DNA of 64,000 nt. It comes from Glycomyces artemisiae. Its GTDB lineage: Bacteria; Actinomycetota; Actinomycetes; Mycobacteriales; Micromonosporaceae. The DNA lies in the NCBI RefSeq assembly GCF_003002955.1, contig NZ_PVTJ01000001.1, positions 248,001-312,000 on the forward strand, written 5' to 3'. Of the stretch, positions 35,986-37,601 are shown in pieces. How positions within the stretch are numbered: the first letter of the stretch is position 1; each line of letters opens with the position of its first letter. Below the pieces are notes generated by a model that saw nothing but the letters and a program-made list of their open reading frames with translations, was not told the origin of the DNA and made no database searches. Position numbers and translations under genes: made by a program.

Positions 35986-36097
35986 GTGCACCCTTCCGAA
36001 TCTGAGGTGCCCCGACCCTACTGCCCCCGCTAGCCGCCCGGCAAGCAAGCTTCCGTCGTGCGCTAACTTGGCGGCGGCCTCAAGTTGCGGTAGCGTT

Positions 36098-36115
36098 GTT
36101 GACTATGGCGTCAAC
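36098..36115. promoter_or_regulatory. TetR-type operator overlapping the peptide start codon
   Basis: GTTGAC and GTCAAC flank TATGGC as a perfect 6-bp inverted repeat. The ATG of the peptide gene (36105) is in the spacer. The core TTGACTATGGCGTCAA is echoed by TTGACAATGTCCTCAA upstream of the tetR gene. Confidence 0.65.
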
Positions 36116-36266
36116 TTACGAGAACGCGACAGCGACCGAGGAGCCCGAGGCTCCCGAGACCGAAGCGCCCGAGCCGCAGCGGCCCGTCGCGCTCAAGGCA
36201 CCGCTCCTCCTGGTGACCTCCGACGAGGCCTACGGCGTGTGCGGCGCGGACGGGGTGTGCGAGTGA
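36105..36266 (+). CDS. 53-residue peptide with C-terminal CX5C motif, precursor-like
   Basis: The peptide runs MASTYENATATEEPEAPE then a Pro/Glu stretch, QRPVALKAPLLLVTSDEAYG and ends VCGADGVCE. Its acidic, Pro-rich N-terminal part and compact Cys-containing end look like a leader and core. The two cysteines (C46, C52) are the only ones and sit in a Gly-rich hexad, as for an intramolecular disulfide, thioether or metal site. The ATG has no Shine-Dalgarno site and lies within an operator, which suggests a leaderless transcript. The stop overlaps the DsbA/FrnE start (TGATG). No radical-SAM or cyclodehydratase gene is near. The family is unknown to me. Confidence 0.7.
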   Translation: MASTYENATATEEPEAPETEAPEPQRPVALKAPLLLVTSDEAYGVCGADGVCE

Positions 36267-36931
36267 TGGCCGGCGAGGTCTTCGGCCGCAGCGCCGACCC
36301 CGTGTCGATCGACGTCTGGTCCGACGTCATGTGCCCCTTCTGCTACATGGGCGACGCGCTCCTGGGCCAGGCCCTCGAACGCTTCCCGCACGAGACCGTC
36401 ACCCGCTACCACGCGTTCCAGCTCATGCCGGAGCTGCCGAGCGACAAGCCGCAGAACGTGCTCGACATCCTGGAGCGGGAGAAGGGCTTCCCGCGCGCCC
36501 AGGCCGAGGCCATGAACGCCCAGGTCGCCGAGCGCGGCAAGAGCCTCGGCCTCGACTACCGGTTCGACACGGCCCTCGCGGTCAACACCCGCGACGCCCA
36601 CCGGCTCTCCCACTTCGCCGCCGCGCACGGCAGCCAGACCGCCCTGGTCCACCGCCTCTTCAAGGCCTTCTTCACCGACGGCCTCAACGTCGCCGACCAC
36701 GACGTGCTCGCCGACCTCGCCGCCGAGACCGGCCTCGACCGGGCCGCCGCGCTGAGCGCGCTCAAGAACGGCGACTACGACGACGCCGTCGACGCCGACA
36801 TCCGGCAGGCCCGCGAACTGCGCGTCACCGGCGTCCCGTTCTTCGTCATCGACGGCAAGTACGGCGTCTCCGGCGCCCAGCCCGTCGAGGCGTTCCTCCA
36901 GGCCCTCGACACCGCCTGGTCCGACCGCTAA
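36266..36931 (+). CDS. DsbA-family (FrnE-like) thiol oxidoreductase
   Basis: A 221-residue thioredoxin-fold protein without a signal peptide, so cytosolic. The active site is SDVMCPFCYMG (CPFC at about residues 23-26), and the FrnE-type insert (ALAVNTRDAHRLSHFAAAHG) and the cis-Pro loop VTGVPFFVIDGKYGVSGAQ follow. FrnE-like proteins are disulfide isomerases/oxidoreductases active under oxidative stress. It starts on the last base of the peptide gene's stop codon, so the two products are made together, and the peptide's cysteine pair is an obvious candidate substrate. A TetR gene converges on it ten bases downstream. Confidence 0.93.
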   Translation: MAGEVFGRSADPVSIDVWSDVMCPFCYMGDALLGQALERFPHETVTRYHAFQLMPELPSDKPQNVLDILEREKGFPRAQAEAMNAQVAERGKSLGLDYRFDTALAVNTRDAHRLSHFAAAHGSQTALVHRLFKAFFTDGLNVADHDVLADLAAETGLDRAAALSALKNGDYDDAVDADIRQARELRVTGVPFFVIDGKYGVSGAQPVEAFLQALDTAWSDR

Positions 36932-36941
36932 CGCCCGCCGG

Positions 36942-37601
36942 CTACGCGCCGCCGCGGCTCTGCATGACCCGCTCGACCTGCTCGGGCGTCAGAGCCGCGG
37001 TCGGCAGCGGCCGCGCCCCCTCCGACCTGAGCCCGTCGAGCGTGAACGCCAGGCTCCGCCGCCACGCGTCCGGCGCGTCCTCCGCCGTGAACCGCACCAG
37101 CATCGCGGTGGACCAGAACACGAACAGCAGGTCCTCCGCCGCGAAGTCCGCCCGCAGCGACCCGTCGGCCTGCGCCCGCTCCGCGATCCGCCGCGCCTGC
37201 TCCTGCGACCGGTGGCAGACCTCCGCGAGCCGCGCCGTCCCCGGGTGGTTCCGCGAGATCACGTCGTTCAACGCCAGGTTCTGCACCTGGAGCTCGCACA
37301 CCCGCTCCACGTACTGCGCGAACCCCTCCCACGGGTCCGCGCACGCCAGCGCCCGCCCCGCGGCGGCGTCGAGCCGCTCCTCCGCGTACTGCGGGACCAC
37401 GGCGTCGATGAGGCCCTCGCGGCTGCCGAACCGGTGGTAGATCGTCCCGGTGCTCACCCCGGCGCGCTGCGCGATGGCGTCGAGCGGCGCGTGCAGGCCG
37501 CGCTCGCCGAAGACCTCGGCGGCGGCGCACAGGAGCTTCTCGATGTTGCGGCGGGCGTCCGCCCGCACCGTCCGCGCCTCGCCCACGGCCGCCCCCTCCA
37601 T
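36942..37601 (-). CDS. TetR-family repressor
   Basis: A 219-residue regulator with an N-terminal helix-turn-helix (AAEVFGERGLHAPLDAIAQRAGVSTGTIYHRFGSREGLI in adjacent segments, residues about 27-65) and a helical ligand domain. It has Cys residues at about 25, 86, 102 and 129, which could serve redox or metal sensing but are not diagnostic. A TTGA-N8-TCAA palindrome lies 16 bases upstream of its start and recurs at the peptide/DsbA promoter, so it probably controls both itself and that operon. Confidence 0.92.
   Translation of the reverse strand: MEGAAVGEARTVRADARRNIEKLLCAAAEVFGERGLHAPLDAIAQRAGVSTGTIYHRFGSREGLIDAVVPQYAEERLDAAAGRALACADPWEGFAQYVERVCELQVQNLALNDVISRNHPGTARLAEVCHRSQEQARRIAERAQADGSLRADFAAEDLLFVFWSTAMLVRFTAEDAPDAWRRSLAFTLDGLRSEGARPLPTAALTPEQVERVMQSRGGA

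Follow-up and report, generated by a model that had tools for sequence, protein, structure and literature searches.

Some redox enzymes, such as ribonucleotide reductase, carry a mobile C-terminal cysteine pair that relays electrons to the active site. The FrnE protein of Deinococcus radiodurans (drFrnE; DR_0659; PDB 5cnw, 5co3, 5coh, 5xwh and 5cp1) is a cytosolic enzyme with a CP(W/F)C active site. In its crystals, the C-terminal tail, which holds a second Cys pair, extends to the active site of a different molecule; a Cys244–Cys22 disulfide is seen, and the tail is described as working between molecules (PMC8945050). The FrnE proteins of S. roseofulvus and D. maricopensis have no such C-terminal pair, and the same review states that their regeneration must differ (PMC8945050). 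In Pseudomonas, a gene set with tetR, dsbA/frnE-like and trx genes gives allicin resistance, and the dsbA gene by itself confers resistance to a disulfide-stress toxin (PMC7119367).

The window analysed here is a stretch of 64,000 nucleotides from Glycomyces artemisiae (contig NZ_PVTJ01000001.1, positions 248,001 to 312,000), and all coordinates without a contig label refer to it. A gene of 53 codons lies on the forward strand at 36105–36266 (ATG at 36105, TGA at 36264–36266) and encodes the peptide MASTYENATATEEPEAPETEAPEPQRPVALKAPLLLVTSDEAYGVCGADGVCE. Its only two cysteines, C46 and C52 (codons 36240–36242 and 36258–36260), form a CX5C motif in the C-terminal end ...GVCGADGVCE, with C52 one residue short of the C-terminus, while the N-terminal half is acidic and rich in Pro and Glu. 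The stop codon overlaps the start codon of a DsbA-type gene in the sequence TGATG (36264–36268, forward strand). An earlier sequence-only reading had drawn attention to the 53-codon gene, its two-Cys CX5C end, its acidic, leader-like Pro/Glu half and the overlap, and all of these are present as it described.

The downstream gene (36266–36931, forward strand) encodes a FrnE-type DsbA oxidoreductase of 221 amino acids with a CPFC active site (C23 and C26) and without a C-terminal Cys tail. It matches the Pfam DSBA family at 4.5e-43, drFrnE at 7.1e-47 and Streptomyces coelicolor SCO1869 at 7.4e-39 in sequence searches. Its AlphaFold model has a mean pLDDT of 93.1 and superposes on drFrnE (5cnw) with a TM score of 0.92 and an rmsd of 1.1; the fold search also returns YjbH, a DsbA-fold adaptor. 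The N-terminus, MAGEVFGRSADPV, contains no hydrophobic stretch by eye. Sequence and predicted structure identify it as a FrnE-type disulfide oxidoreductase, which is probably cytosolic. The same genome encodes a second FrnE (L133, G000:C1:726583-727242), which ends in ...EKAWDERQPAN and has no Cys tail, unlike six Glycomyces FrnE paralogs (L007–L012), all of which have ...CGP(D/E)GC tails.

The peptide and the DsbA enzyme are a conserved pair. The sequence-only reading had tied its proposal to homologous small genes upstream of this enzyme family and to conservation of the CX5C tail; a search upstream of FrnE-like genes, with alignment of the C-termini, looked for the lack of either and found both in place. 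A peptide homologue precedes 47 of the 48 distinct DsbA enzymes of the FrnE clade (a gene present in two collections being entered once), and the CX5C spacing is kept in 47/47. The TGATG overlap is kept in 45 of the 47 pairs, the exceptions being L098 and G105, in which another gene has been inserted. In G105 (L016:1632-2951, L089) this is a TnpB/OrfB-like gene of 439 amino acids located exactly between the peptide and DsbA genes, and the peptide ends in ...CDC with the stop codon TAG.

Across the 354 genomes of the GTDB family, 37 contain a DsbA match at E 1e-75 or better. The clade within the family was defined as the 35 enzymes above 330 bits, leaving out G160 and G162 (262 and 272 bits), and all 35 have the upstream peptide, including G105 with its inserted gene. 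Within the genus Glycomyces, a close DsbA (at least 62% identity) occurs in 3/22 genomes, the peptide occurs in the same three, and the next-best DsbA matches reach at most 40% identity. A scan of named genomes returned 29 loci, of which 17 belong to the clade (at least 56% identity) and 16 of these 17 carry the peptide; the peptide-bearing loci are from Promicromonospora, Glycomyces, Dactylosporangium fulvum, Micromonosporaceae KJ-029, Diaminobutyricibacter tongyongensis (now Leifsonia), Propionicicella and a Microbacteriaceae MAG. By NCBI lineages, the clade is found in the orders Glycomycetales, Micromonosporales, Micrococcales and Propionibacteriales. The clade enzyme of Ruania rhizosphaerae has no upstream peptide, and the peptide HMM found none elsewhere in that genome, its match in L141 (E 0.13) stopping short of the Cys pair. 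In a tree of 104 FrnE domains, the 48 clade enzymes form one group (SH-aLRT 100); on this topology the clade has one origin, and Ruania, nested inside it, represents a loss of the peptide.

Searches with the peptide HMM alone recover fewer loci. In the 354 family genomes it gave 24 matches, of which 20 were kept (L032–L035, which have no Cys tail, were set aside), against 35 found through the DsbA enzyme. The class scan (394 genomes) returned the genome studied here and one weak match (L069, E 0.009), and the phylum scan (296) this genome alone; since an HMM-only search for this peptide is insensitive, these near-empty scans are no proof of rarity. The DsbA model matched a FrnE in 37 of 198 phylum genomes, and only this genome scored at the level of the clade. 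Plasmid records gave a DsbA match in 22 cases, all below 60% identity, the best among those shown being 48.5%.

The 34 aligned peptides have 41–64 residues and a net charge of −12 to −4, with two Cys in 32 and three in 2. Each comprises an M-x-S-(S/T) start, a variable acidic Pro/Glu linker and an end close to PLIxLE..D..GVC-x-(V/L)-D-G-x-C-x, and only C46, G50 and C52 are invariant (the L022 row is without its first two residues). Over all homologues, the gene ranges from 30 to 64 codons. The peptides of L100 and L101, which lie outside this alignment, are short at about 30 residues, end in VCTPGEVCD and VCTPDEVCD, and have Glu where the other peptides have the invariant Gly. Pooled over 12 near pairs, one of which (L024/L029) is one residue out of register, pN/pS for the last 19 codons is 0.41. 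Pfam and NCBIfam models gave nothing beyond isolated weak chance matches to the 34 aligned peptides. In Dactylosporangium fulvum (L049/L094), the peptide has a third Cys, and the pair is found without a TetR gene and without palindromes.

Part of the conserved end may reflect translation of the next gene. A GGGG at 36252–36255 (forward strand), within the Asp-Gly-Val codons of the peptide, is the likely ribosome site of the DsbA gene, as judged by codon bias: the Gly codon of the DG is GGG or GGA in 34/34 peptides, compared with 243/1160 Gly codons across the cassettes' DsbA domains and 6/28 in fused FrnE tails. This Gly codon thus probably doubles as the DsbA ribosome site, which partly explains the DG of the peptide and makes the DG match weigh less as protein evidence.

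The enzyme has the DsbA-like thioredoxin domain with CP(W/F)C that marks the FrnE subfamily. The second Cys pair that tailed FrnE enzymes carry on their own C-terminus occurs in 0/48 clade enzymes, 47 of which have the separate Cys-pair peptide. Such a tail was read in 34 of 56 other FrnE enzymes, a set fetched by searches and no random sample, with the incomplete gene L063 left out of the tail count. Fused tail and peptide have the same layout, namely PLxxL, an acidic stretch and a Cys pair at the very end, although the spacing is CX4C in 30/34 fused tails and CX5C in the peptide. The tails most like the peptide are those of L112 (TVGGDAAACDTDGACEV), L057 (VTELVEVTGQVCSTDGNCN) and drFrnE (PLTMLGQDAPAEGCEDGQC), to be compared with a peptide end such as PALIFLESADDAGICDVDGVCD; L112, a FrnE from another family of the class (G414), has a fused CX5C tail, CDTDGAC, and is the closest. 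In 22 of the 56, including the second FrnE of this genome, neither a tail nor a nearby peptide was found; together with the loss in Ruania, this makes the tail an aid rather than a universal need.

Profile comparisons give a modest likeness. With a tail HMM, 16 of the 34 peptides pass the 1% point, and 20 the 5% point, of shuffles in which Cys is fixed, and in the reverse test a peptide HMM scored 5/34 tails above the 1% point and 10/34 above the 5% point; the rows are related, so these counts are not independent, and the highest-scoring shuffles (16.1 and 14.3 bits) lie above the top real scores (14.2 and 12.6 bits). In hhalign, PLxxL, C, DG and C fall in register (P 0.0021, probability 13%). 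This modest likeness suggests common descent of tail and peptide. The likeness of design between them is independent of common descent.

Downstream of the pair, a TetR regulator with an SbtR-like C-terminal domain is encoded on the reverse strand (36942–37601; Pfam TetR_N 3.7e-15 and TetR_C_43 7.6e-08, both above the curated cut-offs). In Glycomyces it is convergent to the pair and therefore outside its transcript, and in the other genera checked it follows the DsbA gene on the same strand. TetR adjoins 45 of the 47 distinct pairs (34/35 cassettes of the GTDB family and 14/16 peptide-linked loci among the named genomes); in the named scan it is missing at Dactylosporangium and the MAG contig L051. 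Two palindromes, each with 10/12 consensus bases, are found at the front of the peptide gene: IR1 (CTTGGCGGCGGCCTCAAG; 36067–36084), whose left arm lies over the presumed −35 box TTGGCG (36068–36073), and IR2 (GTTGACTATGGCGTCAAC; 36098–36115), which spans the start codon. The presumed −10 box TAGCGT (36091–36096, forward strand; both boxes were read by eye) ends 8 nt before the ATG, and a TAnnnT box in this position predicts a near-leaderless transcript.

In 32/32 aligned TetR-linked cassettes, a palindrome like CTTGAC-N6-GTCAAG stands at −39 to −37 with 10–12 of 12 bases, and a second stands at −7 with 9–12 of 12. Among the other 13 TetR-linked cassettes, L091 and L099 lack the start-codon palindrome and L081, L100 and L101 lack the upstream one (present in 11 and 10, respectively), so that all 45 TetR-linked pairs have at least one palindrome and most have two. 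L091 (G068) and L099 (G151) retain both the TetR gene and the upstream palindrome. Dactylosporangium, the sole TetR-less pair with readable upstream DNA, has at most 6/12 palindrome bases, where shuffles average 6.3 and 6.0. From this co-occurrence, we infer that TetR binds the palindromes of the pair. The palindrome over the start codon also accounts for the conserved first residues, M-x-S-(S/T), of the peptide. A HxlR- or MarR-type regulator for these palindromes was considered and dropped, as TetR co-occurs instead. The motif TTGAC-N6-GTCAA occurs in four places in the genome, the other three being near unrelated genes, and no further regulon member was found among these sites; one of them (L068:1501-1516; G000:C9:178738-178753) precedes the start of an unrelated TetR gene by 22 bases.

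By analogy with drFrnE, the peptide is probably a FrnE redox tail that is made as a separate, co-translated chain and acts in trans. The locus would then be a cassette for thiol/disulfide chemistry, composed of a redox-tail peptide, a FrnE enzyme and a TetR regulator, in which a tail-less FrnE would receive its tail from the upstream peptide as a separate chain. The PLI-x-L-E, acidic and C-x5-C end of the peptide would dock at the CPFC site and form a mixed disulfide, and the peptide would relay electrons between a reductant and the enzyme. Synthesis of the two chains may be coupled by the TGATG overlap together with the ribosome site that lies within the peptide gene. TetR would keep the promoter repressed from the two palindromes, one over the −35 region and one over the start codon, and could be released by a thiol-reactive or oxidant signal. 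The allicin-resistance gene set of Pseudomonas, with its tetR and dsbA/frnE-like genes, fits a disulfide-stress role of the cassette. In a further, rather unlikely reading, the peptide of 30–64 residues would be a free, genetically encoded carrier of dithiols, split from FrnE and shuttling electrons in trans, and other tail-less enzymes, for instance the second FrnE of this genome, may also draw on it.

Of the functions offered by the sequence-only reading, the one retained as the best is a small redox peptide in the cytosol, exchanging with the enzyme; the RiPP and metal-peptide options are not supported. If the peptide were a substrate or product, oxidation or isomerisation of its Cys pair by the DsbA enzyme would yield a small disulfide-looped peptide of RiPP-like or signalling type, and both the gene pairing and the conserved C-terminal Cys pair would be expected. 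We consider this unlikely. A usual RiPP precursor has a conserved leader and a variable core; here this is reversed, as the core would fall at the conserved end and the leader in the variable half. Within 6 kb, no transporter, protease or second tailoring gene is common to the six genus groups, which share only the DsbA and TetR genes, barring one weak match far from the cassette (33% identity, between KJ-029 and Promicromonospora panici, two of the six groups). The enzyme is also nearest to cytosolic FrnE, and no signal peptide is seen by eye. Binding of a metal or thiol-reactive compound by the Cys pair and acidic residues, with the peptide as a sink or sensor that DsbA reduces, would suit two Cys and a net charge of −12 to −4, and cadmium raises drFrnE expression (PMC8945050). 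It is nevertheless very improbable, as 32/34 peptides have only two Cys and the other two only three, and a metal transporter is absent from the genes common around the cassette.

The small gene could instead be a regulatory leader, a leaderless first gene that sets DsbA expression by coupling or cysteine-responsive attenuation and whose peptide is of little use. The TGATG overlap in 45/47 pairs, the ribosome site in the last codons and the operator-like DNA in the first codons all agree with this, but PLIxLE and GVC are conserved outside both DNA signals, pN/pS is 0.41, there are just two Cys codons, six apart, and the gene varies in length from 30 to 64 codons; such a role is therefore quite unlikely. 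A role as a ligand or inhibitor, whether by blocking the groove of DsbA or by signalling thiol state to TetR, would draw on the TetR gene adjoining 34/35 family cassettes and on the presence of YjbH among the fold-search matches. Dactylosporangium has the peptide without TetR, and an alignment of 14 TetR rows contains no invariant Cys, which leaves little likelihood for this role. If the peptide is indeed a FrnE redox tail in trans, a gene of its own can encode the mobile redox tail of a thiol oxidoreductase, FrnE recycling becomes testable by adding or omitting one small peptide, and the locus offers a natural split pair for the study of docking and electron relay. It would also be a compact TetR/operator system over a likely leaderless start, and would give a function to a small gene outside all Pfam and NCBIfam models.

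In the literature searched, which included the available parts of PMC8945050, PMC11164402 and PMC7119367, there was no prior account of a detached FrnE tail or a DsbA-linked CX5C peptide. The tail of ribonucleotide reductase, likened to the peptide by description only, belongs to the same chain as its enzyme. The Pseudomonas allicin-resistance set (osmC, sdr, tetR, dsbA/frnE-like and trx) also places a FrnE-like gene beside tetR, but includes several further redox genes, and the available part of its description does not mention a Cys-tail peptide (PMC7119367). S. roseofulvus and D. maricopensis FrnE resemble the clade enzymes in having no C-terminal Cys pair; no peptide has been reported with them, and the tail-less FrnE loci examined here gave no peptide match. 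SCO1869 (PDB 3gl5), a fold match at 39% identity, has a tail, PLKLIDDGGAEACGPDGCAVP, that resembles the peptide end; in this protein and in actinobacterial FrnE with ...ACGPDGC tails, the tail is fused and CX4C, and the clade model scores 190–250 bits, compared with more than 330 for clade enzymes. drFrnE has a like fold and carries its second Cys pair on an end that is flexible, of acidic type, and active between molecules (PMC8945050). Its CX4C pair is on its own C-terminus, whereas the CX5C pair described here is on a separate peptide encoded upstream. The enzyme is of a known kind, and what is new is a FrnE redox tail that is probably made as a separate molecule.
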